Source of the DNA: Kiritimatiellota bacterium
Lineage (GTDB): Bacteria; Verrucomicrobiota; Lentisphaeria; Oligosphaerales; JAADHN01
NCBI GenBank assembly: GCA_013151865.1
Contig: JAADHN010000063.1
Span: 1 to 36,987, forward strand
DNA length: 36,987 nucleotides
Reading direction: 5' to 3'
The position numbers were made by a program, and so were the translations under genes. The notes under the pieces were generated by a model. The model had not been told where the DNA came from. It made no database searches and saw only the letters and a list, made by a program, of their open reading frames with translations. The first letter of the stretch is position 1. Every line of letters starts with the position of its first letter. Positions 9,286 through 34,657 of this stretch are shown here, piece by piece.

Positions 9286-9520
9286 GGTCCAGGACAATAG
9301 TCCGTGGCGTTGGGCACTGCAAATGCTGCCGGAGGCTCACAGTTTTGGAGGCTTGCCGCGCAAACCGAGTGGGCGCGGCCGCTGTCCGTCGCCGACCGAG
9401 ACGGACTTGTCGCTGCGAAGTGACCGAAGGATTGCGAACATGAATCGCAGGCCGACGTGCGCTCGCGATGCCGAAGTCGAACGCGACTGCGTGCACGGGG
9501 ACGAACGAGGACGGTCGAAT

Positions 9521-13417: not shown

Positions 13418-15514
13418 TCAACGTGCTTGCTGACCCGCATCGTCGTCCGCCTGCAATCGGCAACCCTCCAAGACGAGACCGGTGATGTGGTACGCCACGC
13501 AACGACCGGTCACGATGATCGCCTCGCGTCGCGCCCGGGCCACGCGGACCCGGGTCCGCACGTCCTTGAACTCCTCGGGCGGGAAATAACATTGAATGCG
13601 TTTGCCGAAATCGACACGGCAACGGCCGGCCGTCTCACTGTCCCCGGTCGGAACGCCGCGAATCGTCAGTTCCCGCCCGGTCAGTCGCCGCTTCAGCTCG
13701 ATGCCGCTCGTCATCCGGAAGAGCCGCTCCAATTCAGCCACCGTAAACGTGTCCTGTCCGGCCTGCCGCTCCGGAGCGCCGGGCCCGCCCTCCCTCCCTG
13801 CCGTCTGTGCCTCCTTGGCGGCGCCCCGCTGCGCTCGGGCTGGAGGACCGACGATGTCGTCGCCGAAAAGAGTGGGGCCGGCGGAAGCCCCGGCTGTCGC
13901 TCCCGAGCGACGCCCGACGCCCGCCGCAAAGCGTGCAGCCAATTGCCGCGCCGCCTTCTTGGACAACGGTCCAACGCCGGCAACCTGCGCTTTGGCATAC
14001 CGCCGGGTTTGCAAAGGTGTTTCGGCGAGCAACACGTCGCCGTTGGGCTCGCGGCGAACCAGCATACCGAATCGCTCGCCGCCGTTGACGAGTTTGACAC
14101 GCGTGTCCGGAACCCAGAACCCCAGCGTGAGTCGTGCTGTCTGGCCGGCACTGACGCTGACTTTCCGGGTCTGCACGCCGGCGAGCGGGTGCCGGACCGA
14201 CACGACATGTTCGCCCTGGACCAGACCGGGGACATTCAGCGGCGCCGAAATCCCACCTCCTTTTCCGGACGGAACAGTCGTCCCCTTCGGATCGCCGTCG
14301 ACCACAACTCCGCAGCCCGCCGGTCGAGTCGCCACCGCCATTGCGCCGAGTGCGGATTTCAGCTCGACTCGCAGCCGCTCGCCACGAATGGGATTTACTT
14401 CAGCGCGCACGGTCTGCGGCACGAACCCCAGCGCCACCAGCCGCAGCTCCTGCTTGCCCGCAGGCAGTCCGCGCAACACGACGGGCGTACGTCCGAGCAC
14501 CTGAGTGCCCTTCAGGACCGCGGCGCCCGGCGGGGCAGACTCCACCAGGAGCATTCCGGGCCGAAGGCGCAATTCGTACGGCGCGGTCGGTAGGGCCCCC
14601 GGCACCAGGATCTGCCGGACCAGCGGTTCGTATCCATCGAGCACAAGACGGACCCGATGGCGTCCCGGCGCCAACCCGCGCAGCACCAACGGCGTTTTCC
14701 CCACCTGTTCCCCGTCGATCTCGACCGAGGCCCCGGCCGGTTTGCTTTCTACAACCCCCAGGATAGCCGCGACCGGGGGCCTCGGCGCCGGTGCACCCCC
14801 CGCAGCTGCCGCTCCGTTCTTGGGGACGGCGACCTTCTCCGTCGCACCCGCCTCTTTCGACACAGGCGGTGCGCTCGGCGCGCCCGGCGCAAGCGATATT
14901 GGCGGCAACGGATTCTTGGGAGGTTCCAAGACCTTGGACGCACCCGGGGCAATCGATGCCGCTGCGTCCGCTTTCGAAATTGCGGACTCCGCAGGCGCAG
15001 TCGAGGCAGCCGCCTGAGTCGCTTCCCGATCCCCACCATCCAACGGAGTCCGGAAGGCAGCGATCAAGCCTGCAATTCCCGCACCCAAGAGCAGAAAAAC
15101 CAAAACGGCCCGAAACCAGGGAAACGATGCGGACTCGACTCGAGGCGGCTCGGGGCCGGGGCCGACCCCCCCCATGGCATCGCGCGGGATCGATTCGACG
15201 TGCAGCGCTGCGGGATCCACGATCCCGGTGTCATCGGAAAAAAGCAGAAGTTGCCGGCAAATCCCGATTCGGTCGCCCGGTTTGAGAACAGAGACGCGGT
15301 CGATTCGCTTCCCGTTCACCCGGACGCCATTGGTGCTCTTCAGGTCCTCGATAAACCATTCGTCGTTCTCGCGGTAAACCCGGCAGTGACGGCGAGAAGC
15401 CCCCTCGTCTTCCAAGACCAGATCGTTGTCGGCGTCCCGCCCGATCCCAAAGCCGTCGGGCTTCAAATCCAGGGTCCGACCCTGATACCGCCCGCCGAGG
15501 TATCGCAGCTTCAT
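13418..15514 (-). CDS. FHA - membrane helix - triple PEGA - OB-fold protein
   Basis: This 698-residue protein starts at ATG 15514 behind a strong AAAGGAGAA (15530-15522). Residues 1-92 form an FHA phosphothreonine-binding domain with GIGRDADNDLVLED, SRRHC and the TNG turn (61-63). A single membrane helix lies at about 133-154, then an Ala/Pro-rich linker (155-250). Three PEGA-type repeats follow (about 252-318, 320-386, 390-466; SKPAGASVEIDGEQVGKTPL, SAPPGAAVLKGTQVLGRTPV). The C-terminal 580-698 resembles the OB-fold tRNA_anti-like domain (LTGRELTIRGV, RIQCYFPP, IIVTGRCV, GLVLEGCRL). The FHA half should be cytoplasmic and could read kinase-phosphorylated partners; the PEGA/OB half should be periplasmic. 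A Hanks-type kinase occurs at 29968. It is upstream of comEC on the same strand (74-base gap). Confidence 0.85.
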   Translation of the reverse strand: MKLRYLGGRYQGRTLDLKPDGFGIGRDADNDLVLEDEGASRRHCRVYRENDEWFIEDLKSTNGVRVNGKRIDRVSVLKPGDRIGICRQLLLFSDDTGIVDPAALHVESIPRDAMGGVGPGPEPPRVESASFPWFRAVLVFLLLGAGIAGLIAAFRTPLDGGDREATQAAASTAPAESAISKADAAASIAPGASKVLEPPKNPLPPISLAPGAPSAPPVSKEAGATEKVAVPKNGAAAAGGAPAPRPPVAAILGVVESKPAGASVEIDGEQVGKTPLVLRGLAPGRHRVRLVLDGYEPLVRQILVPGALPTAPYELRLRPGMLLVESAPPGAAVLKGTQVLGRTPVVLRGLPAGKQELRLVALGFVPQTVRAEVNPIRGERLRVELKSALGAMAVATRPAGCGVVVDGDPKGTTVPSGKGGGISAPLNVPGLVQGEHVVSVRHPLAGVQTRKVSVSAGQTARLTLGFWVPDTRVKLVNGGERFGMLVRREPNGDVLLAETPLQTRRYAKAQVAGVGPLSKKAARQLAARFAAGVGRRSGATAGASAGPTLFGDDIVGPPARAQRGAAKEAQTAGREGGPGAPERQAGQDTFTVAELERLFRMTSGIELKRRLTGRELTIRGVPTGDSETAGRCRVDFGKRIQCYFPPEEFKDVRTRVRVARARREAIIVTGRCVAYHITGLVLEGCRLQADDDAGQQAR

Positions 15515-15847
15515 CGGGACGTTCTCCTTTGCCGGCGCCGGGTACGGCGCCCAGGGCCGCAACTCAGACGTTACGTCGCGCACCGCACTCGCCTCGGAAC
15601 AAAATGCACCCGTTTTCAGCAACCGTCAAGCCGCGTGGAAACGGTCCGCCCACCGGGCCCCCTCGGACGCTTGTCCGAACAGAGGCAGACGACCGTCCTT
15701 TCGGAGTCGGCTTGTACACCCCGGGATTTGGACTCCGCGGTCCCCGTGCTAGATTCCCGGCTGTTGCGGACAACGCACCGTGCCGGTCCGCGCGACTTCC
15801 TTCCCATCGACCCGTTCGCAAACGACGAGCCCATCTGGAACAGAGAC
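15515..15847. other. Divergent promoter region, FHA protein and sugar transporter
   Basis: No gene is supported. It holds an inverted repeat at 15663-15678 and a weak promoter candidate on the plus strand (TTGGAC 15728-15733, TAGATT 15750-15755, 16-base spacer). The two genes transcribed away from it have no obvious functional link. Confidence 0.5.
15663..15678. promoter_or_regulatory. Inverted repeat, candidate operator
   Basis: TCGGAC-GCTT-GTCCGA is a perfect 6-bp inverted repeat with a 4-base spacer. It lies about 170 bases before the sugar transporter start, ahead of the weak promoter at 15728-15755. Its location fits a repressor or activator site or a small hairpin; no T-run follows, so a terminator is unlikely. 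Confidence 0.3.
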
Positions 15848-18379
15848 GTGGCCACTGGCGAAAGCAAACCACCCCCCTGCGTGTGCATCCGGCGCATATC
15901 TAAAACCTTCGAGGGCGTTCGGGCCCTCCGGGATGTGAGCCTCGATCTGTTTCCAGGCGAAATCCACGCCCTCTGCGGTGAGAACGGCGCCGGCAAATCC
16001 ACACTGATCAAAATCCTGGCCGGCGTGCACGTGCCGGATTCGGGGAACGTGACCGCCTGGGGCGAAGCGTTGCCGTTCGGCAATGTCCTGCACGTCCGGC
16101 GGGCCGGGATTGCGGTCATTCACCAGGAGTCGACGGCGTTTCCGGACCTCACCGCGGCCGAGAATATGTTTGCCGGTCGCGAACCCCGGTGTCTGCACGG
16201 CCTGGTCCTGGACCGGGCCCGAATGCGCCGGGAGGCGGCGGCGGCTTTTGCAGCCCTGGCCGCCGATATTTCGCCGGATTGTTCCGCCGGCCTTCTCTCC
16301 CCCGCCGAACAGCAGGTAATCGCCATTGCCGGCGCACTCTCCGAACAATGTCGACTGCTGATACTGGACGAACCCACGGCGTCGCTGTCGGAACACGAAT
16401 GCGCCTCGCTCTTCCAGAACCTCGAACGACTGCGCTCCAAGGCAGTGAGTATCCTGTACGTGAGCCACCGGCTCGACGAGGTGTTTGCTTTGGCGGACCG
16501 GGTTACGGTCCTCAGGGACGGCCGATTGGCGGCTACTCGACCGGTCGCCGGGCTTTCACGTCCCGAACTCGTCCGCCTGATGGTCGGACGCGAAGTCACC
16601 GAACACGCCCGACAAGAACGAAGCCCGGACACGGACCGAGGCGCAGTGCCGCGTCTCGAAACTCGTGGGTTGACGCGACGGGACGAGTTTCAGGACGTGT
16701 CCCTGCACGTCTCTGCGGGAGAAATCGTCGGACTGGCCGGATTGGTCGGTGCGGGCCGCTCCGAACTGGCGCGCTGTCTCTTCGGCCTGGCACGTCCCGA
16801 TGCGGGGGAAGTGCGGGTCGGCGGCAGGCTGTTAACCGGCGCCGGGGCGGCGGAGGCGATCCGGGCACACATGGCCCTCGTCCCCGAAGATCGGCAACGC
16901 CAGGGGCTGGTTCTGCCGTTGCCGGTACGCGAGAACCTGGGCATGGCCGTGCTGCACGGCTTGAAACGACGATTCTTTCGCAGTGCAAAACAAGAATCCG
17001 CGCTGGCGAGACGCTTGGTCGAACGCCTGGGGATTACCCCCCCCAACACCGAAGCCCCGACCCGGGCGCTGTCGGGGGGCAATCAGCAAAAGGTCGTCCT
17101 GGGAAAATGGCTGGCGACCGACCCGGAAATCCTTGTGCTCGACGAGCCGACCCGGGGAGTCGACGTCGGGGCCAAGGCCGAAATCCACCGGTTGGTCCGG
17201 GAACTGGCGCAAAACGGGACCGCAGTGCTCCTGATTTCTTCCGAATTGCCCGAACTCCTGGCCCTGAGCGACCGCATCTTGGTCATGCGCGCGGGACGAA
17301 TCGTCGCCAACGTGCCTGGGAGGGGCGCAACCCAGGAACAAGTGCTCGAACTGGCGCTGCCCGACAGCAGCTCGACGGCACCGACCGCAAAGGCCCCGGC
17401 CCGCACCGGCATCCACCGGTTGTTCAGACGGCGCGAATGGCCGCTGGCACTTTTTCTTGCCATGCTGTGCGCCGTTGTTGCCGGCGTCAGTCCCCACTTC
17501 CTCGCCCCCGGCAATTTGAGCGACATGCTGGTGAATGCCGCACCGGCGGTGATCGCCGGCTGCGGTCTGACTCTGGTGATCGCCACTGGCGAAATCGACA
17601 TTTCGATCGGATCGATGATGGGCTTGTTGGCGGCGCTCCTGGGGACTTTGTCCGCCGCCGCCCGGCTCGACCTCCCCGTGCCGGTTGCCGTAGCGCTGGT
17701 CCTGGCCGCCGGGACTGTGCTCGGAATCGTCAACGGCAGCTTGGTGGCACTGGCCGGAATCCCATCGATCATCGTCACGCTCGCTATGCTCACGATCTTG
17801 CGTGGTCTTACGGAGCTGGTCATGGGCGGCGAATGGATCACCGACCTCCCAGCCGGCCTGCGCGTGCTGGGAACCGGAACGTGGGCAGGGCTGCCCCTGA
17901 GCATTTGGACCGCGGCATTCGTGGCGGTCGGCGTCGCCGCGCTCGTGCGTCGGACGTCTTTCGGCCTCCATGTCTTCGCCGCCGGGAGCAACCCCGAAGC
18001 CGCGGCTGTCCGAGGTATTTCCGTTCGCCGCACCCGATTGACGGCCTTCGCAATCACCGGACTGCTGACCGCTTGCGCAACGGTCGTCAGCGTCCCGCGA
18101 CTTTCGGTGGTCGAGTCGGGAATCGGCCAGGGCTTCGAACTGCTTGTGGTCACCTGTGTGGTCGTGGGAGGCGCTTCGATCCGTGGCGGCAGCGGCACCA
18201 TTGCCGGCAGCGTCCTCGGAGCGCTGCTGCTCACGACCATAGGGACCATGCTCATTTTTCTCCGACTCGGTGCGACCGCCGTTTACTGGGAGCGCACCGT
18301 CCAAGGCGCGTTCATCCTCATCGCCGTCCTGAGCGATCATTGGCTGCAACGATCCCGGCGAAGAATGGAGGCGGCATGA
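15848..18379 (+). CDS. Fused sugar ABC transporter: RbsA-type double ATPase plus RbsC-type permease
   Basis: The 843-residue protein joins two nucleotide-binding domains to a permease. NBD1: Walker A GENGAGKST (44-52), a non-standard signature LSPAEQQV, Walker B LLILDEP (D174, E175), YVSHRLDEV. NBD2: the degenerate loop GLVGAGRSE (298-306) typical of RbsA second halves, signature LSGGNQQK (408-415), Walker B LVLDEPTRGVDVG (D432). From about residue 529 follow multiple membrane helices including TGEIDISIGSMMG, the RbsC/AraH-family hallmark, and GGASIRGGSGTIAGS. It should import a sugar of the ribose/rhamnose/AI-2 class. GTG 15848 is the most sensible start; no strong ribosome-binding site is visible. 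The stop overlaps the next permease gene as ATGA. Separate rbsA and rbsC genes are the norm, so the fusion is unusual. Confidence 0.88.
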   Translation: MATGESKPPPCVCIRRISKTFEGVRALRDVSLDLFPGEIHALCGENGAGKSTLIKILAGVHVPDSGNVTAWGEALPFGNVLHVRRAGIAVIHQESTAFPDLTAAENMFAGREPRCLHGLVLDRARMRREAAAAFAALAADISPDCSAGLLSPAEQQVIAIAGALSEQCRLLILDEPTASLSEHECASLFQNLERLRSKAVSILYVSHRLDEVFALADRVTVLRDGRLAATRPVAGLSRPELVRLMVGREVTEHARQERSPDTDRGAVPRLETRGLTRRDEFQDVSLHVSAGEIVGLAGLVGAGRSELARCLFGLARPDAGEVRVGGRLLTGAGAAEAIRAHMALVPEDRQRQGLVLPLPVRENLGMAVLHGLKRRFFRSAKQESALARRLVERLGITPPNTEAPTRALSGGNQQKVVLGKWLATDPEILVLDEPTRGVDVGAKAEIHRLVRELAQNGTAVLLISSELPELLALSDRILVMRAGRIVANVPGRGATQEQVLELALPDSSSTAPTAKAPARTGIHRLFRRREWPLALFLAMLCAVVAGVSPHFLAPGNLSDMLVNAAPAVIAGCGLTLVIATGEIDISIGSMMGLLAALLGTLSAAARLDLPVPVAVALVLAAGTVLGIVNGSLVALAGIPSIIVTLAMLTILRGLTELVMGGEWITDLPAGLRVLGTGTWAGLPLSIWTAAFVAVGVAALVRRTSFGLHVFAAGSNPEAAAVRGISVRRTRLTAFAITGLLTACATVVSVPRLSVVESGIGQGFELLVVTCVVVGGASIRGGSGTIAGSVLGALLLTTIGTMLIFLRLGATAVYWERTVQGAFILIAVLSDHWLQRSRRRMEAA

Positions 18380-19371
18380 AAACCGGGGCACACACGGCAA
18401 ACACGATCCGTCGCGCCGCCCGCCGGCTGTTCCGCCATGAAACCGCCCTGGTCCTGATCCTGGCCGGCGTACTCGCAACGGCGGGGGTTTTGGATCCGGC
18501 CTTCCTCGCCTGGAACACCCAGATAGAACTGTCGACCCACATGTGGGAATTGGCCCTGCTTGCCTTGCCCATGATGCTGATCATCGTCGCCGGCGGGATC
18601 GATCTCTCCGTCGGCTCCGCCATGGCCTTGGCCGCGGTCGTGCTCGGCTTGACCTATGCAAAGGGCGGGGTTTCCATTTGGACCGCAGCCCTGGCCGCGG
18701 TGGCAACCGGCGGCGCGGCCGGCGCCTGCAACGGCCTGCTGACGGCCCGATTCCGCCTGCATCCACTGATCGTGACACTGGCAACATTGGCCGCTTTCCG
18801 CGGCATCGCGGAAGGTATCAGTCTCGGCCGGCCGTTCTCCGGTTTCCCGGACGCCTTCATCCTGCTGGGTCGCGGGACGTTCCTCGGTTTGCCCATACCC
18901 GGCCTGGTCGTTGCCGCAGCAACCGTCGGGACGGGCGTGCTGCTTGCCAGAACCACGTTCGGCCGCTCTCTTTTCGCCATCGGTCACAATGAAACCGCCT
19001 GTCGGTTTTCGGGCGTACGGGTGGGGCGCACCCGCTTCCTGCTCCACACCGCCGCCGGCTTGGCGGCGGGTCTCGCCGCGGTCCTCTACGCCGCGAGACG
19101 CAACACGGCCAAAGCCGATGTCGGACTCGGAATGGAGCTGGATGTGATCACTGCCGTCGTTCTCGGCGGCACGAGTATTTTCGGCGGTAGGGGGACCTTG
19201 TTGGGGACCATCGCCGGGGTCGTGGTCATTCACGAAGTCCGCGAATTCACCGGGTGGCATTGGGATCGGGACGAGCTGGTTTTCATTGCGGTCGGCGCCT
19301 TACTCATCTTGTCCACGCTCCTCCACAAAGCGTTGGACGCCGCACAAGGTGCAGATTCACTTCGGCAGTGA
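18376..19371 (+). CDS. Sugar ABC transporter permease, RbsC/AraH family
   Basis: This 331-residue membrane protein has 8-10 predicted helices and the family hallmark IIVAGGIDLSVGSAMAL, plus AVVLGGTSIFGGRGTLLGT near the C-terminus. Its ATG overlaps the stop of the ATPase-permease fusion (18376-18379, ATGA), implying coupled translation and a heterodimeric channel made of the fused permease and this one, as in rhamnose (RhaP/RhaQ) or AI-2 (LsrC/LsrD) transporters with two unlike permeases. The periplasmic sugar-binding protein needed by such systems is not in the window. The polysaccharide lyase gene follows 235 bases downstream on the same strand. Confidence 0.92.
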   Translation: MKTGAHTANTIRRAARRLFRHETALVLILAGVLATAGVLDPAFLAWNTQIELSTHMWELALLALPMMLIIVAGGIDLSVGSAMALAAVVLGLTYAKGGVSIWTAALAAVATGGAAGACNGLLTARFRLHPLIVTLATLAAFRGIAEGISLGRPFSGFPDAFILLGRGTFLGLPIPGLVVAAATVGTGVLLARTTFGRSLFAIGHNETACRFSGVRVGRTRFLLHTAAGLAAGLAAVLYAARRNTAKADVGLGMELDVITAVVLGGTSIFGGRGTLLGTIAGVVVIHEVREFTGWHWDRDELVFIAVGALLILSTLLHKALDAAQGADSLRQ

Positions 19372-19606: not shown

Positions 19607-22600
19607 ATGTGTTACGAGACGCAAGTCCAGTCAGCCGGCAATGTCGACCGCGGCCGACGTACCGCCCGAACCGCCGGTTGCATCCTTGCTTGGCTGGCCG
19701 CCTGCGCCCTGTTGGCGACCGAGCGTCTCGGGGCTTTAGACTCCGCAACCGCCGTCCCCCTGGACGCGAATCTGTATTGGCGCTGTACGGACATTTTGCG
19801 GCAGGGACTGAGTGCCAAAGAATTCTGGCCGTCGATGCATGCGGCCGAGGCCCTGACCGAAACAAACCTCGGCGATGTCGTGCGTTTCCGCCTCCGGCCG
19901 CGTCTACCCGCGGAAATAGACGGGAATCGCCGTTGCGGCCTGGCGCGGGAACTGGTACGGGCATCCGATACGGTGCGGAGCGCCGTGCTCGTCGACGTCT
20001 TGACCAACCCGAAAAGCACTGCGGACGAACGTATCCACGCCGCGGAAAGCCTGTACAAAGTGAATGCCGGCGGCCGGGCCGAAGCTCCGTTGCGTGCCTC
20101 CCTGGATACGGGCAAGCCGGTCCTCGAACTCATGGCCGCCGCGGCCCTGGTCCGGGCCGGACATAACGACTTGCTGCCTCGTATTCGCAGGCGGTTGAGC
20201 GACGCCGACCCGAGAACCTTTCGCATCGCCGCCTGGCTCTGCGGCAGACTCGGCGACGACGCCGCGGTCCCGGCACTGAAGCGCCTGCTGAAAGTGAAGT
20301 GCGACCCGTTATCGCATTCCTTCGTGGTCAATGCACTGGCGAGGCTCGGGGACCCGGATTCGCGACGGCAGGTGCACGAGGAGCTGAAGAGTTCGGACCC
20401 CGGAGTCCGCACATACGCGGCAGCCGCACTCGGTGCGTACGGAACGCCGACCGCGATCCGCCTCTTACGTCCCCTTTTGAACGACGCGAACCTCGACACG
20501 CGCATTCGTGCCGCGCAAGCGATCCTGCGGCTGACCCGTCGTCGGCTGGCGGCGGACCGGGACCGGGACGGAGTGCCGGACGCCGTCGAACTCGAGCTGG
20601 GTACGCCACAGAATAGCCCGGAACCTTTCGCGGTCTTGTGGCGTGGACAGTCGCGCAAGCTCCCGCCGGACGTGAACCCGGAACGAGTCGCACCGTATCC
20701 CGTCGAAGTGCGCTTCTGTCACACAGGCGGCGACCGATACCTTTGGGAGGTGCGGTTCGACCGGCACTATTCGGACGTGCGCACCGTGTTCCACATGTAC
20801 ATGGACCTGGACAACGACCGGTCGAACGGACGGCAGGACAAAGATTGGGTCCGGGGCGTGGACGTGATGTACACATTCTCGAACGCACGGCTTGATCCGC
20901 GTTTTTTCACGCCGTCGCTGCGCACGCGTCCCGATTGGCCGGTCCGTGGCATGATTCTCGGCGACACCTTGTGGCTGTGCGACGATGTCCGCGTCCGCCG
21001 GGAAGCCGGCAGAACCGGGTTCCGGATGTGGACGCTCAGCGAATATCGCAACCCGGCGGGCAAGGTCGCCCGGCGTTTCAGCACCCCGGACCAGATCGTC
21101 CGAGCCCTCCTGCACATGGGACGCACAGTCCCCGAGCTGCCGTTCCCCAAACTCCAGGGGTTCCGTTCGTTTCCGCCGTCCTGGGAACTGCGGCATCGCT
21201 TGCAGTCCGCTCCGGACACGGTGGAGCTGACGCCGAACCCGGCCGCTTGCTCGGACGCGGAAATGCAAGGGAACGGAGCGGTCGACCTGGCGGGATACGG
21301 TGCAGGGACGGCGGGCTTCACTGTGCCGGGGGCGATCGGACCTCGATTTGTGGCCGTCTACGCACAGGCACTGAGCGGAGGGCTCGGTGCAGTCGAACTG
21401 CGCGTGAACAATGCCCGTGCCGGAACGCTGGTGGCGGGAGCGGCGGAGTCGCCGGGCGTGCTGTTGTCCGCAATCGAACCGATCACTTTCCACAAAGGCG
21501 ACCGCCTCGAGTTCCGGACTTTGCCCCGCAGCGGTCGGCTGCGTTTGAGGCAAGTATTGCTCCCAACAGCCCCGCCGACATGGCCGCCGCTCCGCATCGA
21601 CCACCTGACGACCGCGGTCCTGCCGCCGCGTGCCGGAGAGACACGCGACCGCGTGACGATCTCTTGGACCACCAACCGTCCCGCGACCTGCGAACTCCGC
21701 ACGACGCAGACACGCGGCGGACGAAGCCGCCGCGTCGTCGTCGACCCCGAGCCGGTCGAGGTACACCGTTTTACAATTCCGGCGGCTTGGCAGTCCGGCG
21801 CCGGGAATGAGGTGCAGGTCTGGCTGTCGGCTCGCGATTCGCTCGGCGTCACGGCCGAAGCGGGGCCCGCGACCGTGCCGTTTCGGCGACCGCGCCCGGA
21901 AAAAACGGCCGCTTGGTCGTCGAGACGCATTCCGCTGACCGTGGCCGAACCCACACGGACTCCACGCCGCGCCTGGCCGCTCCGCTCGGGCGTGCCCCTG
22001 CCGCCGAAGACCCTGGCGGACCCCGCACGCTGCCGGGTGCTCGACCCGACAGGCAAGCCCGTGCCCGGCCAGTTCCGCGCCCTCGCCTATTGGCCGGACG
22101 GCAGTGTGAAATGGCTCCTCACCGAGTTCGAAGCGGATACAGTGGCCGGCCCCCGGTCCGTCGCCCCGGCCGGTTACACACTGGTAACCAACGTCTCACC
22201 GTACGAGACGCAGGACACGCCGCGAGTCGCGGTCCGACAAACTCCCGAAGCGGTGATCGTAGACACGGGGACCTTGCGAATAATTCTGCGACGGGACCAG
22301 TTCGATCCGTTCGCGGCAGTGGAAGTGAACGGACGCCGACTGGCGAAAGCCCCCGGCAGAGGGCTTGTCGTGGTCGACGGGGACGGCGCCGTGTACACTT
22401 CCTGTTCCACGAAACCGGACGAGATGCTGGTCGAGGCCGACGGGCCGGTACGCGCTACGGTGCGCGTCCGCGGGCATGTGGCGGGTGCCGTGGCCCGGAA
22501 AGGAATGGCCTATCTTTGCCGCATGGACTTCTTTGCCGGCCGCCGAATGGTCCGCTGCACGTTGTCGCTCGACAACAGCCTGGTGGGCCGGAAGATGAGC

Positions 22601-25177
22601 CTGTTCCGCGAGGCGACGTTGCACATCCCGGTATCCGCCGTGCGAACCGCGCAGTTCGGCGGCGACGGCAGTAGTGTCGTGCGAACTCCGCAACTCCCCG
22701 CCCGCCTCCTGCAGGACTACGACAACCGCTGGCGATTGAGCAGCGGGGCGAACGGCAACGAGATCGCCTCGGGGAAACGCGCGGCGGGGTTCGCGGCCGT
22801 GCCGGACGCACGAGTGGCGGTGCGCGATTTCTGGCAGTTGTATCCCAAAGCCCTGGCCGTGGACCGGACCGGCCTGACGGTCGAATTCCTGCCGAAAATT
22901 CCGGAGGACCAGTACACATCGGACGAAGACCGCAAGCTCTTGTCGAAACTCTATTTCTGGTCTGACAAGGGCCGATACAAACTCCGTGCCGGCGCACGGA
23001 TCACCACGGTGTTTACGGTCGATTTCGGCAAACCGCCTTCGACGACGACCTTCGCTGCACATGTCCGGCAGCCGCTGTTCGCGGCGTGCACCCCGGACTG
23101 GTATTGCGCGAGCCGGGCGGTGGGACGGATCGCACCGCGGCGGCCGGGAGCGTTTCCCAAGTACGCCGAAAACCTGGACAACGCGTTTGCGGGTTTCCTA
23201 TCCCGGCGTGAACAGGTGCGGGAGTACGGATTCATGAACTACGGCGACTGGTACGGCGAGCGCCGGTGGAACTGGGGCAACCAAGAGTACGACACCCAGG
23301 GCGCGTTGGCCTTGAATTACCTGCGCACCGGCAACCTTGCCATGCTGCGTCGGGCCCTCGAAGCCGAGTCTCACAACGCAGACATCGACACCATCCACCA
23401 CAGCGTCAACCCCAACGACGTCGGGCGCGTGCACATCCATTGTCTGGGGCACACCGGCGGATACTTCCCGGCGGGGTTCAAAGGCATGAGCCGGTCGTTT
23501 ACCGGGGGCGCCATGACCCCGAGTCACACTTGGGATCGGGGACATTTCCTGCTGTGGGCGCTTACCGGCGAACCGCGCTACCGCGAAACGGGCGACCTGG
23601 TGGCGGAACACTTGGCCTCCGTGGATGCGAACAAAGCGGCCATCGGCCGGTCGCGCAGCGGCGGCTGGGCGCTCATCGCCCTGACCGGCGCATATCAAGC
23701 CACCGGCGACCCGTACTATCTGAACGCAGCCCGTCTGCTCACCCGAAAGATCCTGGAGAAGCAACGTCCCAACGGCCAATGGCGTCATCCCATATGGGAA
23801 GCGCGGGACAGGACCCCGCAGCCGTGGGGCTGCAAGCCGTTCATGACCGGCATCATCCTGCACGGACTGTGCATGATGGACCGCATTGATCCTTCGGACG
23901 CGGTCAAGGCGGCCATCCTTCGCGGTGCGCGGTACCTGTGGGATAAAACATACGTGCGCAAGGACCACGGGTTCGTCTACGCCGAGGCGCCGCGTTTTAT
24001 GGGACGCGGAGGGATTTGGACGCTGCCGCTGGTGGGTGACGGCCTGGCCTATGCCTGTCGGCTCGACCCGAGACATCGAGACAAAGACCTGCTGATCGAA
24101 GCGTGCAGTTGGAACTTCCACAAGGCCGGGATCAGTTCATTCGGCAAGAGCTTCACGCAAGGCGCCTGCTTCATGCCGTACATGCTGACCGAGTTGCCGC
24201 GACTCGGCATCACACGGATCCAACCGCCCATCGAACAGGACGTTTTGCACTTGCGCGAAGCGGTCGTTCTGCCCGTGGGGGGAAGTACAGAGTTGCGGAT
24301 CTGGATCGAACGGAAGCAGTCGGAGAGCGCGGACTGGACCGCAGTGTTCGCCCAAGGCGCAGAGCGCTGGCTCCGCCTGCCTGCCGACCGCACTTTGCGG
24401 TGGCGGGCGACGCCGGGATTGTCCGGTAGTCCGATTGTACCCGTGCAGGCACCGACAAAACCTGCCCGCGAGAAACTGAGGGTCACCCTCCGCAGCGGCA
24501 AGCGCACCGAGCACACGATCATGCTTTTCGGGGCCGTGGCCGCCCGGAAACCCGGAAGGCGCATCGGCTGGGTCACGGGCAAAGACGATTGGCTGCGCCG
24601 CGCTGCAGAGGCCTGCGGCGAGAAAATCGCCCGCATCCCCGACCTTCGCACTGCCGACTTGGCAGGATACGGCGCGATCATCATTGGCGCCGAGGGCTTC
24701 GAGAAACGGTTTGCCCACTGTCGGGAAGCCTCCGTCAAACTGCTGGAGTTCGTGGCTGCGGGCGGGCGGCTTGTTTGCGGGCAACTGAACGATGGCAATT
24801 GGCGGCTCGGGTTCCTGCCGTTCGACCTGATTTTGAGTGACGCCGGATCTGAAAGCGGGAGGATTATTGATTCCCGCCATCCATTGTTCAACCGTCCCGT
24901 GCGGTTCTCGCGTCTCCCGACTGTGGCCTGCTACGACAGCATCGTGCGAGCCGCGCCGGAGTGGCGGACCTTGATGCAAGACACCGCCGGGCGACCCGCG
25001 ATTGTCGAAGCAACGGTTGGAACTGGGCGCGTCCTGGTCGTAATGCCCAGTTTCGACCGTCCCGTGCTGAACGCCGAGGCCGATGCGGAGACACGCAAGG
25101 CCTGTCGGGGCTTCATTCGGAACCTGATCGCCTGCGCACGCCGCCTAACCCCGCCCTTTGAAGAGCGGCCAGACTGA
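19607..25177 (+). CDS. Giant secreted multidomain protein with PL26 (YetA/PcRGLX-like) rhamnogalacturonan lyase
   Basis: This 1856-residue protein has an N-terminal export signal (CILAWLAACALLA, about residues 24-45). Helical HEAT-like repeats span about 60-312 (VPALKRLLKV, SDPGVRTYAAAALGAYG). A calcium-type loop follows (DRDRDGVPDAVELE, 317-330). About 345-690 is beta-rich with MYMDLDNDRSNG; 695-765 looks fibronectin-like (RVTISWTTNRPATCEL). From about 785 the YetA/PcRGLX layout appears: PLRSGVPLPPKTL, VPGQFRALAYWPDGSVKWLL, then an alpha/alpha-toroid (about 1180-1560) with NYGDWYGERRWNWGNQEYDT, GRVHIHCLGHTGGYFP and HTWDRGHFLLWAL. About 1650-1850 resembles a GATase/ThuA-like Rossmann domain (LAGYGAIIIGAEG, VGTGRVLVVMPSFDRP). 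AAGG 7 bases upstream supports ATG 19607. It probably cleaves rhamnogalacturonan I or a similar polymer outside the cytoplasm for import by the transporter upstream. Confidence 0.8.
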   Translation: MCYETQVQSAGNVDRGRRTARTAGCILAWLAACALLATERLGALDSATAVPLDANLYWRCTDILRQGLSAKEFWPSMHAAEALTETNLGDVVRFRLRPRLPAEIDGNRRCGLARELVRASDTVRSAVLVDVLTNPKSTADERIHAAESLYKVNAGGRAEAPLRASLDTGKPVLELMAAAALVRAGHNDLLPRIRRRLSDADPRTFRIAAWLCGRLGDDAAVPALKRLLKVKCDPLSHSFVVNALARLGDPDSRRQVHEELKSSDPGVRTYAAAALGAYGTPTAIRLLRPLLNDANLDTRIRAAQAILRLTRRRLAADRDRDGVPDAVELELGTPQNSPEPFAVLWRGQSRKLPPDVNPERVAPYPVEVRFCHTGGDRYLWEVRFDRHYSDVRTVFHMYMDLDNDRSNGRQDKDWVRGVDVMYTFSNARLDPRFFTPSLRTRPDWPVRGMILGDTLWLCDDVRVRREAGRTGFRMWTLSEYRNPAGKVARRFSTPDQIVRALLHMGRTVPELPFPKLQGFRSFPPSWELRHRLQSAPDTVELTPNPAACSDAEMQGNGAVDLAGYGAGTAGFTVPGAIGPRFVAVYAQALSGGLGAVELRVNNARAGTLVAGAAESPGVLLSAIEPITFHKGDRLEFRTLPRSGRLRLRQVLLPTAPPTWPPLRIDHLTTAVLPPRAGETRDRVTISWTTNRPATCELRTTQTRGGRSRRVVVDPEPVEVHRFTIPAAWQSGAGNEVQVWLSARDSLGVTAEAGPATVPFRRPRPEKTAAWSSRRIPLTVAEPTRTPRRAWPLRSGVPLPPKTLADPARCRVLDPTGKPVPGQFRALAYWPDGSVKWLLTEFEADTVAGPRSVAPAGYTLVTNVSPYETQDTPRVAVRQTPEAVIVDTGTLRIILRRDQFDPFAAVEVNGRRLAKAPGRGLVVVDGDGAVYTSCSTKPDEMLVEADGPVRATVRVRGHVAGAVARKGMAYLCRMDFFAGRRMVRCTLSLDNSLVGRKMSLFREATLHIPVSAVRTAQFGGDGSSVVRTPQLPARLLQDYDNRWRLSSGANGNEIASGKRAAGFAAVPDARVAVRDFWQLYPKALAVDRTGLTVEFLPKIPEDQYTSDEDRKLLSKLYFWSDKGRYKLRAGARITTVFTVDFGKPPSTTTFAAHVRQPLFAACTPDWYCASRAVGRIAPRRPGAFPKYAENLDNAFAGFLSRREQVREYGFMNYGDWYGERRWNWGNQEYDTQGALALNYLRTGNLAMLRRALEAESHNADIDTIHHSVNPNDVGRVHIHCLGHTGGYFPAGFKGMSRSFTGGAMTPSHTWDRGHFLLWALTGEPRYRETGDLVAEHLASVDANKAAIGRSRSGGWALIALTGAYQATGDPYYLNAARLLTRKILEKQRPNGQWRHPIWEARDRTPQPWGCKPFMTGIILHGLCMMDRIDPSDAVKAAILRGARYLWDKTYVRKDHGFVYAEAPRFMGRGGIWTLPLVGDGLAYACRLDPRHRDKDLLIEACSWNFHKAGISSFGKSFTQGACFMPYMLTELPRLGITRIQPPIEQDVLHLREAVVLPVGGSTELRIWIERKQSESADWTAVFAQGAERWLRLPADRTLRWRATPGLSGSPIVPVQAPTKPAREKLRVTLRSGKRTEHTIMLFGAVAARKPGRRIGWVTGKDDWLRRAAEACGEKIARIPDLRTADLAGYGAIIIGAEGFEKRFAHCREASVKLLEFVAAGGRLVCGQLNDGNWRLGFLPFDLILSDAGSESGRIIDSRHPLFNRPVRFSRLPTVACYDSIVRAAPEWRTLMQDTAGRPAIVEATVGTGRVLVVMPSFDRPVLNAEADAETRKACRGFIRNLIACARRLTPPFEERPD

Positions 25178-26810: not shown

Positions 26811-27120
26811 CGCACAGCCCGGGAGATAACCAGCGCCGAGTCGGAACTCGCCCATGCAAGGCAAAAACCTCGCCAGTCGATTGGGCGCGCGGTCCGGGGA
26901 ATTTCGCCTGGAGGGCAGTCCCGCCCGACGGGAAAGCCGTGCCTTCCGGCAAGCAGACCGCAACGTTGAACGGAAGTCAGCCAATGCGCACGTTCCACTT
27001 ACGCGCCTCGACGAATTCTGTTTGAAACGGTTTTCTCCGCCCGAAAGTCCTTTTCGGGGCGGTCCGCAACCGGCACGCACTTTGATCGGAGGCAATCTGC
27101 CTTCAGGTTGCCCGAGCGGT

Positions 27121-27130
27121 CCTGTACAGG
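27121..27130. promoter_or_regulatory. Perfect 10-bp palindrome upstream of nitrilase-GDPD gene
   Basis: CCTGTACAGG lies 50 bases before the ATG at 27180. It is short, so chance occurrence is quite possible; it could be a dimeric regulator site. Confidence 0.2.
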
Positions 27131-27179
27131 CAGTCTCCGCAAAGCGTGCCGCCGGCTTCGGAGAATTGGAAGAACGATC

Positions 27180-28757
27180 ATGCAGGCGACAATCCTTCAG
27201 CCGCCCTACCCTTCTGCCTCCAGTGCCGCACTCGCCCGAGACTGCCAGACCTGGATGCTGGCACGACTCGCCGAACTCCCGCCGGGAAAGACGGACTTGA
27301 TCGTGTTGCCGGAGTACGCCACTGCACCGGGCATCGATGCCCCGGAGCTGCTGTTTCAATTCTCCGCAACCACGGGAGCCGACTTCCTCCAGCGACTCCA
27401 GACCGCGGCCGAGCGGCTGAACGCATTCATCACGGTGGGAACGGTCCAGCGGTCCGGCCGGCGTCACGTCAATCGGACAGTCGTTTTCGGGCCGGACGCA
27501 ACCGCAGTTGCCGTGTATGACAAAACGCACCTGACTGCAGTCGAACGGGAAACCCTGAAGTTGGCCCCGGGCGGAAAACCCGGCCTGTTCCCCCTCAAGC
27601 GCTGGCGCGCGGGGCTTGCCGTCTGTTTCGATCTCTATTTTCCGGAGTACTTCGAAGCATTGGCCGCCGAACAGGTGGATGTGATTCTCTGTCCGAGTTA
27701 CCAGCGGTCGGAATCCCCGGAGCGGATTCGGCTGATCTGCGGCTGCCGGGCCCTGGACACCGGGGCTTACGTATTGCGCAGCGGATACGCAATGGCCGAC
27801 CGTTCCCGTGGAGGGGCGTCACTGGCGGCCGGACCGGACGGCCGGATCCTGACCGACGCCGGCAGCGAACCGGGAGTACTTACGGTCAGTTTCGACCCGG
27901 AAACCAAGTTCCGCAAGCCCGCATCCCACGGACAGGCGGCGATCGACCATCGCCGCCTGATCGAACGCCACCGGCGACCGAACCTCTATCGGCCTTCTCC
28001 CAAGCGCAGACGTCGCATCCTTGACAGTCCGTTTCCACGCCTTTGCGCTCACCGCGGCCTGAGCGCGGTGTGCCCGGAGAACACGGTCCCGGCCTTTGCC
28101 GCCGCCGCCGCTCTGCCTGGGGTCCATGAAATCGAGTTCGACCTTTGGTTGTCGCGCGACGGGGTCCCGGTCGTCTGTCATGACCCGAAGCTGGACCGAA
28201 CGACCAACGGAACGGGCTACGTCCCTGAATTGGATTGGACCGACATTCGCCGCCTCGATGCCGGCGTCCGTCGGGGCGAAGAGTGGCGCGGGGTGCGCGT
28301 CCCATCGCTGGACGAAGTGATTGACGCCGTGGATGGGCGGGTCGGCCTGAACATTCACATCAAGGCCCCGGGACCGGACAACCGGTTGATTCATTTGGTT
28401 TGCGACCGCATCCGCGAATACGGCGATGTGGAAACCGCTTACATTGCCGGAGACGGGCCGGTTCTCGAGGCGGCTCGGCAGTATGCACCCGAAATCGCCC
28501 GCGCCTGCCTCGCCGCACAGGACCGGCCCGCACAACAGATCGAGGCAGCGCTTCGATTCGAGTGCCGGCGGATCCAGTTCGGGCGGAACGCAACCGCGGA
28601 GCACATCGTCGCGGCACGGGACGCGAACCTGATCTGCAACCTCTTCTGGTCGGATGAACCGGACGATGCCAGCCGATGGTGCGCCAAAGGAATCCAGGTA
28701 GTGCTGACCAATGCGGCGCACACATTGGCCGCAGTCGGGGGCGACGCCGGCGGGTAG
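27180..28757 (+). CDS. Fusion of nitrilase-type amidohydrolase and glycerophosphodiester phosphodiesterase
   Basis: This 525-residue protein carries two enzymes. Residues 1-260 form a carbon-nitrogen hydrolase with its Glu-Lys-Cys triad: Glu45 in IVLPEYAT, Lys115 in YDKTHLT, Cys149 in LAVCFDLYFPEYF. After a short basic linker (RPSPKRRRRI), residues 287-520 form a GDPD TIM barrel with CAHRGLSAVCPENT (H291, R292, E300, N301), EIEFDLWLSRDGVPVV (E319, D321) and HDPKLDR (H334). Both sets of active-site residues are complete. Neither half has a signal peptide, so action in the cytoplasm is likely. A substrate with both an amide and a phosphodiester, such as an N-acyl ethanolamine-type lipid headgroup, would explain the pairing, but that is speculation. 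ATG 27180 starts directly at the nitrilase strand; the ribosome-binding site is weak. Confidence 0.88.
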   Translation: MQATILQPPYPSASSAALARDCQTWMLARLAELPPGKTDLIVLPEYATAPGIDAPELLFQFSATTGADFLQRLQTAAERLNAFITVGTVQRSGRRHVNRTVVFGPDATAVAVYDKTHLTAVERETLKLAPGGKPGLFPLKRWRAGLAVCFDLYFPEYFEALAAEQVDVILCPSYQRSESPERIRLICGCRALDTGAYVLRSGYAMADRSRGGASLAAGPDGRILTDAGSEPGVLTVSFDPETKFRKPASHGQAAIDHRRLIERHRRPNLYRPSPKRRRRILDSPFPRLCAHRGLSAVCPENTVPAFAAAAALPGVHEIEFDLWLSRDGVPVVCHDPKLDRTTNGTGYVPELDWTDIRRLDAGVRRGEEWRGVRVPSLDEVIDAVDGRVGLNIHIKAPGPDNRLIHLVCDRIREYGDVETAYIAGDGPVLEAARQYAPEIARACLAAQDRPAQQIEAALRFECRRIQFGRNATAEHIVAARDANLICNLFWSDEPDDASRWCAKGIQVVLTNAAHTLAAVGGDAGG

Positions 28758-29943: not shown

Positions 29944-29967
29944 GTGACTAGAGGAGAAGATCGACCG

Positions 29968-31224
29968 GTGAGCACCCGAAACCCTCCGCCGTCGAACCCC
30001 GACCCGACTGCCGCCACTGTGATGCGCCAGGAACGGAAACGCATGGCCACGGCCGACGTGCGCGCCTTGCTCGAGGTCGTGGGCCGCGTCCAGCGCGACC
30101 ATTTGGAGAAAACAAACCGCCGGCAGGACTTGTCCGCCAGCCTGAGCCGCGGACAGTTGGCGGAATGGTTCTCCAAAGACCGCTACGTCTATGCCGAAAC
30201 GATCGCCGAGGGTGGAATGGCACGCATCTACTGCGCGGCGGACCTGCACCTCTGTCGGACCGTGGCACTCAAGACACTGTTGGAAGACCAGCCCCCCGAA
30301 AACGTGGCCCGCTTCTTGTACGAGTCGCAGATCGCAGCCCAACTCCAGCACCCGAACGTGGTGCCCGTATACGATACCGGGCTCGACGAACAGACCGGCC
30401 GCCCCTTCCTGGTGATGAAACTGATTGCAGGGCAGTCCCTGCTCGACATTATTCTCGGACTGCGGCGGCACGACAACACCGTGCGGCGGTACAGCAGCTT
30501 GGCGGAACGAATCAACATCTTTCTCAAGGTCTGCGACGCCATCAGTTACGCGCACGCGCACAATGTGGTGCACCGCGATATCAAGCCGGCGAATGTCATG
30601 GTGGGCGAATACGGTGAAGTCTACGTCATCGACTGGGGCATCGCCGAATCCCGTGCCGACTTGCCGCCTTCGGACCCCGAAACCGGTCGTGTGGCTTTTG
30701 GGGGCGACCGTGTATCGACGTTCCACGACGTCTACCGACTCTCCGATCCGGCCGCCGATAAGTCTTTCATGGGCTCGCCGGTACACATGGCCCCCGAGCA
30801 GATCGCCAGTCCCGACGAAATCGACCACCGCTCCGATGTTTACGGGCTCGGGTGCACCCTGTACGAACTCATCACGCTCAACGCGCCGTTCAGCAGCCGG
30901 TTGAGTATCGACGAACTCTATCGTGCCAAGTGCAGCGGCGACTTTCCGCCGGTTTGGCGATACGTGCCGGTGGCGCGGTATGGACTGGCCGACATTGTCC
31001 ACCGGTGCATGGCGCCCCGGAAAAGCCGGCGTTTCCAAAAAGTCACTTCGTTGCAGAATGCCCTCAAGCGTCATTTGCAGAACGCCATGAAGTCCAAGCT
31101 TCCGCAACGAATAGACGCTCTCGCCGCCTGGGTCAACAAGATCGACCCGGATTGCTTCGACGAAAAAGTCAAGGCGGAGTTGCTGGACCGACTTTCCAAA
31201 ATTGCCCGCGGGAGAAAGCCCTGA
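29968..31224 (+). CDS. Hanks-type Ser/Thr protein kinase
   Basis: The 418-residue protein is a soluble kinase: glycine-rich loop AEGGMARIYCA (about 78-88), VAIK-type Lys102 (VALKTLL), HRDIKPAN (H202, D204, N209), DWG (D222) in place of DFG, and MAPEQI. About 50 residues lie between DWG and APE, longer than usual. Residues 1-70 are a charged N-terminal extension and the C-terminal 80 are helical; there is no membrane segment or PASTA domain, so it should act in the cytoplasm. The start was set at GTG 29968 because AGGAGA (29952-29957) is spaced 10 bases from it; GTG 29944 would place that site inside the gene. Possible targets include the FHA protein at 13418-15514 or the lipid transport genes downstream, but nothing proves a link. 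Confidence 0.92.
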   Translation: MSTRNPPPSNPDPTAATVMRQERKRMATADVRALLEVVGRVQRDHLEKTNRRQDLSASLSRGQLAEWFSKDRYVYAETIAEGGMARIYCAADLHLCRTVALKTLLEDQPPENVARFLYESQIAAQLQHPNVVPVYDTGLDEQTGRPFLVMKLIAGQSLLDIILGLRRHDNTVRRYSSLAERINIFLKVCDAISYAHAHNVVHRDIKPANVMVGEYGEVYVIDWGIAESRADLPPSDPETGRVAFGGDRVSTFHDVYRLSDPAADKSFMGSPVHMAPEQIASPDEIDHRSDVYGLGCTLYELITLNAPFSSRLSIDELYRAKCSGDFPPVWRYVPVARYGLADIVHRCMAPRKSRRFQKVTSLQNALKRHLQNAMKSKLPQRIDALAAWVNKIDPDCFDEKVKAELLDRLSKIARGRKP

Positions 31225-31590
31225 GGCGCCCCCGGCCGGGAGCACTGTTCAGTTTTCCTCCCGTACTATTTGGCCGGGACTTTTGTCCAACCCGGTGGGC
31301 GGGGATCGGTAACCGAGGAATCGATGCCGTGAATCCGACGCAAGCACGGGGACCCGACTGCGCGACTGCGTGCGACATGCCTCCGGATTGGCAGAACGAT
31401 CCCGTGGCCGGGGCTTGCGCTCCAACCTACTTACTGTATGAACCATCCGCCGCAATGACAGTTCTCGTGTGCCTTCTCGCGACGAAGTTCATGAATCGCA
31501 AAGCGTCTCGAAGGGGTCGGAGAATACTGCAGGGCCCGCAGGTTGGAGTGCGTTCCCGATTGTTTCGAGACGATTCGCAGGTCCGATTCA
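31225..31590. other. Intergenic region between kinase and lipid transport genes
   Basis: No gene is supported. CGTCTCGAA (31504-31512) and TTCGAGACG (31564-31572) form a 9-bp inverted repeat with a 51-base loop, ending 18 bases before the mlaE start. No strong promoter or terminator was found; TACTAT at 31265-31270 lacks a partner -35 box. Confidence 0.5.
31551..31574 (-). repeat. Short conserved intergenic motif, copy 2
   Basis: Reverse-complement partner of 19511-19534 (21 of 24 positions identical), directly upstream of the mlaE-like gene. Confidence 0.4.
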
Positions 31591-32715
31591 ATGAAACCCT
31601 TTCAAATCCAAGATGATGCAGACGCCCTCCGGATCCTTTTCGGCCCACGCTTCGTCCGAACTGATACCGCAGCTTTCTGGGACGAAATCGACGACTCGGT
31701 CCGCGGGACGTCCCGGGAACGCGTCGAACTGGACTTCACCGCCTGCACCCGATACGATTCCAGCACCGTGGTTCTTGCCGCAGCACTCCGAACCCAATGC
31801 GAACAGCGCGGGATCTCCTGCGAACTCCACACGCCCTCGGGGAACTTCGACGAACTGCTCAGTGCCGCGTCGGCCCAGCCCCCCGACCTTCGCACCCGGA
31901 CAACGGCTCCCGCCTCTGACCGGCGTTACCCCACGCGTATCGGCGACGCAGCCGTACGTCTCGCCGAAAGTGTCTACCGTGCCCTGGTGTTCACGGGCGA
32001 ATCGGCCGCGGCCTTGGCCGAAGTCCTGCGCCACCCCGGGCGCACCCGCTGGGGAGAGACGTGGCGCATCCTCCAAGGGGCCGGCGCCGATGCGTTGCCG
32101 ATCGTCGCCCTAATCTGCTTCCTCATGGGGGTCATTATGGCATTCCAAGCCGCCGTGCAACTTCATACCTTTGGTGCCGACATCTACGTGGCCGACCTTG
32201 TGGCCCTCAGCATCGTACGCGAGCTGGGCCCCCTGATGACGGCCATCATCTGCGCCGGACGCTCAGGGGCGGGGTTCGCCGCGGAACTGGGAGCCATGAA
32301 AGTCGGAGAAGAGGTGGACGCCATGGTCACCATGGGATTGGACGTCCAGCGATTCCTCGTCACGCCGAAAATCCTGGCCCTTCTCGCGGCCCTTCCCTGC
32401 CTGACCGTACTCGGCAATCTCATCGCCATTCTGGGCGGCATGTTGATAAGCGCCACGGTCCTCGGCCTGCCCTGCGCCGTCTACTGGAACGAAACCGTTG
32501 CCGCACTCGGGTACAGCGACTTTTTCGGAGGACTGGCCAAGAGCTTTGTGTTTGCCGCCCTGATCGCCGGGATCGGTTGCTACCGGGGCCTCGAAGTCGG
32601 GACCGACGCCCAGGACGTCGGTCGCAAAACAACCTCGGCCGTCGTAACCGGAATCTTTTTTATCATTCTGGCCGACGCCGGATTCTCTGTCTTGTACCAT
32701 GTAATGGGAATCTGA
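31591..32715 (+). CDS. mlaE: STAS-MlaE fusion, lipid ABC transporter permease
   Basis: This 374-residue protein has an N-terminal STAS-like domain (about 1-95; ELDFTACTRYDSSTVVLAAA is the typical strand-Asp-Ser-helix) fused to an MlaE permease (about 125-374) with several membrane helices and the family core QAAVQLHTFGADIYVADLVA, SIVRELGPLMTAIICAGRSG and GEEVDAMVTMGLDVQRFLV. In E. coli the STAS protein MlaB is separate and binds MlaF; here the two are one chain. It should form the inner-membrane part of an MCE-type phospholipid transporter that maintains outer-membrane asymmetry. ATG 31591 was chosen because the STAS strand begins there. mlaF starts 28 bases after its stop. Confidence 0.93.
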   Translation: MKPFQIQDDADALRILFGPRFVRTDTAAFWDEIDDSVRGTSRERVELDFTACTRYDSSTVVLAAALRTQCEQRGISCELHTPSGNFDELLSAASAQPPDLRTRTTAPASDRRYPTRIGDAAVRLAESVYRALVFTGESAAALAEVLRHPGRTRWGETWRILQGAGADALPIVALICFLMGVIMAFQAAVQLHTFGADIYVADLVALSIVRELGPLMTAIICAGRSGAGFAAELGAMKVGEEVDAMVTMGLDVQRFLVTPKILALLAALPCLTVLGNLIAILGGMLISATVLGLPCAVYWNETVAALGYSDFFGGLAKSFVFAALIAGIGCYRGLEVGTDAQDVGRKTTSAVVTGIFFIILADAGFSVLYHVMGI

Positions 32716-32743
32716 CCCCGCGACGCCACGAACAAAGCAGACC

Positions 32744-34652: not shown

Positions 34653-34657
34653 ACCCG

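Follow-up and report, generated by a model that had tools for sequence, protein, structure and literature searches.

A modular protein with a PL26-type core on an uncharacterized branch found in Lentisphaerota, Armatimonadota, and related bacteria

We analyzed a stretch of 36,987 nucleotides (hereafter, the window), which makes up one entire contig in an assembly of 6.2 Mb with 97% completeness. The host is a bacterium that degrades sugar chains. The window encodes a protein of 1856 amino acids, and its sequence makes a secreted modular enzyme the most likely product. Profile, alignment, and model comparisons give good support for a complete three-domain PL26 fold at residues ~775–1480. This fold, the residues conserved in both the branch of the fungal enzyme PcRGLX and that of the window protein, and the module order were established computationally. 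Members of this branch typically come from Lentisphaerota, Armatimonadota, and bacteria related to them; the window protein is ordinary in kind and uncharacterized in its branch. The reading we favor, with moderate confidence, is that of a secreted enzyme of the PL26 fold superfamily that acts as an exo-type uronan beta-eliminase and carries binding and docking modules.

The open reading frame (ORF) is uninterrupted, and an AAGG-like ribosome-binding stretch precedes its start codon (Table 1). Its coding score, the highest in the window, is partly circular because the codon table was taken from the same ORF. Read by eye, the putative signal peptide has a basic n-region, the hydrophobic stretch CILAWLAACALLA, and a cleavage-like L-G-A end; its LAAC resembles a lipobox as well. 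Signal-like starts are also found in related HEAT proteins. An assembly chimera was considered and rejected, since the module junctions recur in independent genomes. The initial annotation had described a lyase of this length in which HEAT repeats, a calcium-type loop, and beta domains precede a center of PL26/PcRGLX type. Judging from the ORF, the Pfam matches, and the AlphaFold model, the protein is real and this layout was largely right.

Table 1. Coordinates in the window of the PL26-type protein, its modules, and the upstream importer
Feature	Residues	Position	Strand	Basis
Monosaccharide (CUT2) ABC importer		15800..19371	+	NCBIfam AraG E 1e-149 and AraH E 3e-51 (both below the equivalog cut-offs), Pfam
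Full ORF, predicted secreted HEAT-TSP3-beta-CBM35-like-Fn3-PL26-like-beta-GATase_like protein	1856 aa	19607..25177	+	
Putative signal peptide	~1–43	19607..19735	+	Read from sequence
HEAT solenoid	~52–315	19760..20551	+	Pfam HEAT_2/HEAT_PBS, AlphaFold model, Foldseek
TSP3-type calcium-binding-like loop DRDRDGVPDAVELELGT	~317–344	20555..20638	+	Alignment, TSP3_bac in relatives
Conserved beta domain	~345–516	20639..21154	+	AlphaFold model, alignment of relatives
Beta domain weakly like CBM35	~517–672	21155..21622	+	Profile against PDB
Fn3-like domain	~672–776	21620..21934	+	Pur_ac_phosph_N / fn3 matches in relatives
PL26-type catalytic core	~775–1497	21929..24097	+	Pfam, profile, alignment, AlphaFold, Foldseek
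Post-core beta domain	~1498–1631	24098..24500	+	AlphaFold model, alignment of relatives
GATase1_like Rossmann-type domain	~1634–1856	24506..25174	+	Foldseek, Pfam on aligned tails

The assignment of the core relies on several lines of comparison. The Pfam models PcRGLX_1st (E 2e-6), PcRGLX_2nd (E 7e-9), and PcRGLX_3rd (E 8e-5) matched the ORF, the last with 22.5 bits, just below its cut-off of 23.8. A core profile was built from the cores of 55 relatives, which came from a one-genome-per-species scan and from relatives of the host; among the latter, 33 of 60 genomes contained matches of some kind. When searched against the PDB, this profile matched PcRGLX at positions 6–728 of 765 (723/765) with E 3.6e-110, and the next match, an alpha-1,6-mannanase, followed at E 3e-11. 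The AlphaFold model of residues 768–1856 (core plus tail, 46 sequences) had a pLDDT of 92.1 and a pTM of 0.87. With this model as the Foldseek query, PcRGLX chains took all of the first 13 places (E between 3e-30 and 1e-27; TM 0.59–0.63 by target length), followed by a match at E 4e-8, so that the proposed PcRGLX-type center is borne out by both profile and structure searches. The overall rmsd to the PcRGLX chains was 7.5–9, which suggests a different arrangement of the domains or a superposition distorted by the appended tail. The core comprises a RIFT barrel bearing W829-P-D-G-S-V-K-W836, a beta sandwich, and an (alpha/alpha) toroid, which is the same order as in PcRGLX of Penicillium chrysogenum (CAZy PL26; PDB 5xq3, 5xqg, 5xqj, and 5xqo). 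Aligned by structure, the two proteins are about 15% identical, and PcRGLX, with about 906 aa, lacks the HEAT, TSP3, CBM35-like, Fn3, and GATase_like modules of the window protein.

Conserved alignment columns were defined as invariant in PcRGLX and its eight near relatives, and as at least 92% conserved in 14 sequences of the window clade. There were 27 columns conserved in both branches, and the residue was the same in 27 of the 27 (PcRGLX chain numbering); the window protein itself deviates at one of them, with K801 for G32. On the side of the RIFT barrel, the shared pairs (PcRGLX/window) include W61/W829, D63/D831, K67/K835, and W68/W836. The toroid contributes, among others, D541/D1214, W562/W1223, N564/N1225, E566/E1227, R579/R1240, H595/H1256, D600/D1261, H614/H1278, H618/H1282, and W691/W1354. 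No loss of PL26 residues relative to PcRGLX was therefore seen, a comparison that covers family-conserved positions rather than experimentally established catalytic residues. Six further columns were fixed within each branch and differed between them, and several of these are close to the 27 shared ones (G558/R1219, A561/N1222, L567/Y1228, and D690/G1353 are near the conserved set). Such branch-specific changes may mean that the chemistry or the substrate has changed.

In a maximum-likelihood tree of 56 cores, whose root and deep order are uncertain, the window protein and PcRGLX fell into different clades separated by long branches. The PcRGLX clade (branch length 1.77, support 100/100) contained Streptomyces and other Actinomycetota (Microbacterium), Paenibacillus, Bacteroidota, and Verrucomicrobiota. 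The window clade (15 rows, 100/100) contained Armatimonadota, Lentisphaerota, Verrucomicrobiota, and Planctomycetota, and no characterized member was sampled near the window protein. Its closest neighbor was L056, followed by L057 and then L058 (each 100/99). The relatives of the host are Lentisphaerota; the nearest named one, Victivallales bacterium Lenti_02, carries L056, which is 53% identical over the core, and the core identity to L057 and L058 was 42–47%. The L056 gene (6187–10190) appears in two frames; since the break coincides with an ambiguous assembly base (X in both frames), we did not treat it as a genuine split of the gene. Pfam PcRGLX_1st also matched in the control genomes of B. 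subtilis, the species of YetA, and Bacteroides. PL26-type sequences of Paenibacillus phytohabitans, Actinomycetota, and Bacteroidota grouped with PcRGLX rather than with the window protein; YetA itself was outside the alignment, and the titles and abstracts consulted on YetA contained nothing informative. Overall, the sequences make membership in the fold family clear, whereas membership in the characterized exo-rhamnogalacturonan lyase group is not.

The modules in front of the core were also recognizable. The DxDxDG loop, DRDRDGVPDAVE at residues ~318–329, contains the D-x-D-x-D-G-x-x-D-x-x-E motif of TSP3_bac, and its D-x-D-x-D is invariant in the alignment of relatives (A4). Pfam called TSP3_bac on the aligned loop in 10 of 18 relatives, with the copy in the window protein itself below the threshold. 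The annotated calcium-type loop thus corresponds to a bacterial TSP3-type repeat, and the beta domains proposed for the front part appear in the AlphaFold model at residues ~345–775. The beta domain that follows the TSP3 loop has an invariant Y / D / G-R / G signature (Y-x-D-x-D-N-D ... G-R), and it gave no match in Pfam or in sequence searches of the PDB. This domain occurs in many PL26-like proteins, and it accompanies HEAT without a lyase in L048. For the next beta domain, the profile (A5) matched the CBM35 structure 2vzp at a marginal E of 0.025, and the resemblance is suggestive only. Pur_ac_phosph_N and fn3 matches were obtained in relatives for the Fn3-like region, whose end is a low-confidence stretch of the AlphaFold model.

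Behind the core, the alignment of relatives contains a conserved Rossmann-like domain at ~1640–1845. The initial annotation had compared the tail to GATase and ThuA proteins, and the GATase-like part of this comparison held: Pfam GATase1_like matched four of eight aligned tails (best E 7e-4), and Foldseek matched the tail fold to STM3548 (2gk3; E 7e-5). The ThuA part did not, as Pfam ThuA failed to match the aligned tails, on which GATase1_like and DUF4350 were found instead. PDB sequence searches with the tail returned nothing usable. The fold is therefore one that the tail has in common with GATase1_like proteins (PF07090), whereas the sequence score is weak and the tails of the clade have no conserved Cys. 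Positions with G, H, YD, W, D, P, S, and R are common to the eight aligned tails. No Cys is invariant among them, and the Cys of the window protein in RLVCGQLND is not conserved; a working glutaminase is therefore unlikely, and from its sequence the tail is probably non-catalytic.

The HEAT repeats proposed for the front part were confirmed by Pfam (HEAT_2, E 2e-18; HEAT_PBS, E 2e-7), by the AlphaFold model, in which the solenoid has about 7–8 helical hairpins, and by Foldseek, in which the N-terminal half matched alphaRep/HEAT structures. The repeats are strongest at residues 140–315, and a PDB search with the single sequence found almost only HEAT designs, which made a family profile necessary to detect the PL26 match. 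Vip3, Cry, CDTb, and xanthan lyase also ranked high among the Foldseek matches of the N-terminal half, with an rmsd above 20 and a TM of about 0.1–0.15; we regard these multi-domain alignments as meaningless and claim no relation to toxins. We searched 289 genomes of the phylum, drawn evenly and including only part of the 60 host relatives scanned for PL26, with residues 41–542. Besides the window, only G009 matched at E <= 1e-15. In G008, HEAT precedes the TSP3 domain in an ORF that runs off the contig end (L055), and the remainder of the protein begins right at the border of a second contig (L054); a single gene divided between the contigs would agree with this but is not proven. In Lenti_02 (G014), HEAT is shortened and most repeats are lost. 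HEAT fused to a PL26-type core is thus found in the window, probably in G008, and in shortened form in G014. No HEAT was found in the Armatimonadota relatives. From this absence and the reduction in G014, HEAT is unnecessary for the chemistry of the core.

HEAT modules of the same kind also occur apart from PL26-type cores. Stand-alone HEAT proteins with signal-like starts were found in G009 (L136, 287 aa, separated by 6 bp from the sulfatase gene that follows) and in G019 (L137, 327 aa, before an APH-like gene), the latter with a kinase-like gene and a peptidase gene as neighbors. G001 encodes a HEAT plus TSP3-beta protein (L048, 486 aa, also with a signal-like start) between a GH4 gene and a gene for a 1386-aa CBM35/PKD protein. 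The HEAT–TSP3 junction was seen independently in G001 and G008, with 41–50% identity over the junction, L055 of G008 giving the 50%. In the host's own genome, such a HEAT module and a sodium:solute symporter form one fusion protein (846 aa; L035, 1919–4456, minus strand). The titles and abstracts consulted on HEAT–polysaccharide lyase fusions contained nothing informative. A docking role for the HEAT cap would be a natural and plausible one; the cap is a lineage-specific add-on and not the mark of a new protein class.

A new class of multidomain protein, as had been suggested, is in fact not indicated by the rest of the architecture, as the order from TSP3 to tail recurs across Armatimonadota and Lentisphaerota, the HEAT cap being the sole rare part. 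Two uncharacterized proteins, L057 (Zipacnadia, 1574 aa) and L058 (Armatimonadota, 1563 aa), have the same TSP3-beta-CBM35-like-Fn3-PL26-GATase_like order as the window protein but lack HEAT. Lentisphaerota proteins show this order as well, it also occurs in L063, L070, L083, L037, and L043, where the TSP3-beta region and tail were recognized, and the beta-PL26-tail junctions are found in Armatimonadota too.

As judged from family searches, the host genome contains four PcRGLX_1st, 15 heparinase II/III-like, and 75 sulfatase matches, several GH78-type matches, and one rhamnose isomerase (RhaA). It has only two GH28 matches, and Pfam found no GH88/GH105 unsaturated-uronyl hydrolase. GH88/GH105 was likewise not matched in G008, G009, G015, and G020, each of which has several PL26-like genes, and was matched once in G014. 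Genes for glycan degradation also adjoin the relatives: a heparinase II/III-like gene overlaps that of L057, and a GH129-like gene precedes that of L058. A monosaccharide importer lies upstream of the window ORF on the same strand across a gap of 235 bp. It consists of an AraG-like sugar ABC ATPase and a BPD_transp_2 permease, apparently fused in one ORF (15800–18379, plus strand), and a second, AraH-like permease that ends at 19371. No substrate-binding protein gene was recognized beside it in the window. This importer was not seen among the examined neighbors of the G008 and G014 relatives, and the link between the PL26-type protein and the importer is therefore weak.

In the mechanism that we favor, the cleft between the RIFT barrel and the toroid would bind the end of a uronic-acid-bearing glycan, and the enzyme would cut next to the uronate by beta-elimination, as an exo-enzyme by analogy with PcRGLX. 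Conserved Arg and Lys residues would neutralize the carboxylate, with conserved His residues as candidate base and acid. The TSP3, CBM35-like, and Fn3 modules would place the core on its substrate, the GATase1_like tail might serve as a non-catalytic domain for ligand binding or assembly, and the HEAT solenoid, as a lineage-specific docking module, could tether the enzyme to another protein or to a surface. Released sugars may enter via the adjacent ABC importer. PcRGLX acts on rhamnogalacturonan I (RG-I) from the reducing end. That the window protein is likewise a true exo-rhamnogalacturonan lyase, PL26 in activity, as first annotated, we consider unlikely, and RG-I as its substrate is unproven. 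The PL26 fold with its 27 shared positions would agree with this activity, as would the rhamnose isomerase and the GH78-type rhamnosidases of the host, but PcRGLX lies away on its own long and fully supported branch, changes specific to the window clade surround the conserved positions, and the host combines few GH28 matches and no GH88/GH105 match with sulfatase and heparinase II/III-like matches in numbers that speak against a simple RG-I role. The same deep separation raises the somewhat unlikely alternative that the protein is not a lyase, its name being carried over from PcRGLX, and that the PL26 scaffold serves another reaction, such as that of a glycosidase or one directed at a glycan with sulfate or methyl groups. 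The lack of unsaturated-uronyl hydrolase matches in several genomes with many copies and the sulfatase-rich host genome fit this alternative, and the toroid resembled GH127/GH76/GH88-type folds in the profile search as well. However, all positions conserved in both branches coincide, and other enzymes acting on unsaturated uronates may escape a single Pfam model.

The remaining alternatives concern the HEAT cap. It is quite unlikely that HEAT is the functional point of the protein, as an adaptor bringing sulfatases, transporters, and lyases together in a single complex at the surface. The module does stand free beside a sulfatase gene, lies next to a CBM35/PKD protein, and is fused to a symporter and to the window protein, but these linkages are few and not conserved, the G019 neighbors are kinase-like and peptidase genes, and the loss of most repeats in G014 and the absence of HEAT from the Armatimonadota relatives make it dispensable for the enzyme. 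A chance fusion, with the HEAT cap as neutral baggage or the ORF as an assembly chimera, is very improbable: the fusion occurs in only two or three genomes, but the HEAT–TSP3 junction is seen independently in G001 and G008 and, shortened, in G014, and the junctions shared with Armatimonadota largely refute a chimera. More speculatively, and with low probability, the window clade might form a new family of enzymes that use the PL26 scaffold on a substrate of their own (e.g., a marine or algal glycan that is sulfated or bears rhamnose/uronate), and HEAT might be a mobile docking module that, in these Lentisphaerota, links lyases, sulfatases, and a sugar symporter in one degradation complex associated with the surface. 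Returning to the secreted PL26-superfamily enzyme, fungal PcRGLX was the only solved PL26 structure found in the PDB search, and a large part of the fold's diversity in bacteria lies on branches without a sampled characterized member, often with several copies per genome in Lentisphaerota. For expression and assay, the window clade is an obvious candidate, and its TSP3, unnamed conserved beta, and GATase1_like modules offer testable candidate binding domains; the HEAT fusion alone is a modest curiosity.

Several other genes were observed in the window. Upstream of the importer and divergent from it lies a gene for an FHA plus PEGA-repeat protein (13418–15622, minus strand), and a 581-aa ORF with a good coding score (9284–11029, plus strand) had no Pfam match. 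Downstream of the PL26-type ORF, a single ORF of 549 aa (27108–28757, plus strand) combines a carbon-nitrogen hydrolase with a glycerophosphodiester phosphodiesterase. A protein kinase gene (29944–31224) stands just before an Mla-type operon (31543–35383, plus strand) that encodes STAS-MlaE, an ABC ATPase, MlaD, and ABC_trans_aux.
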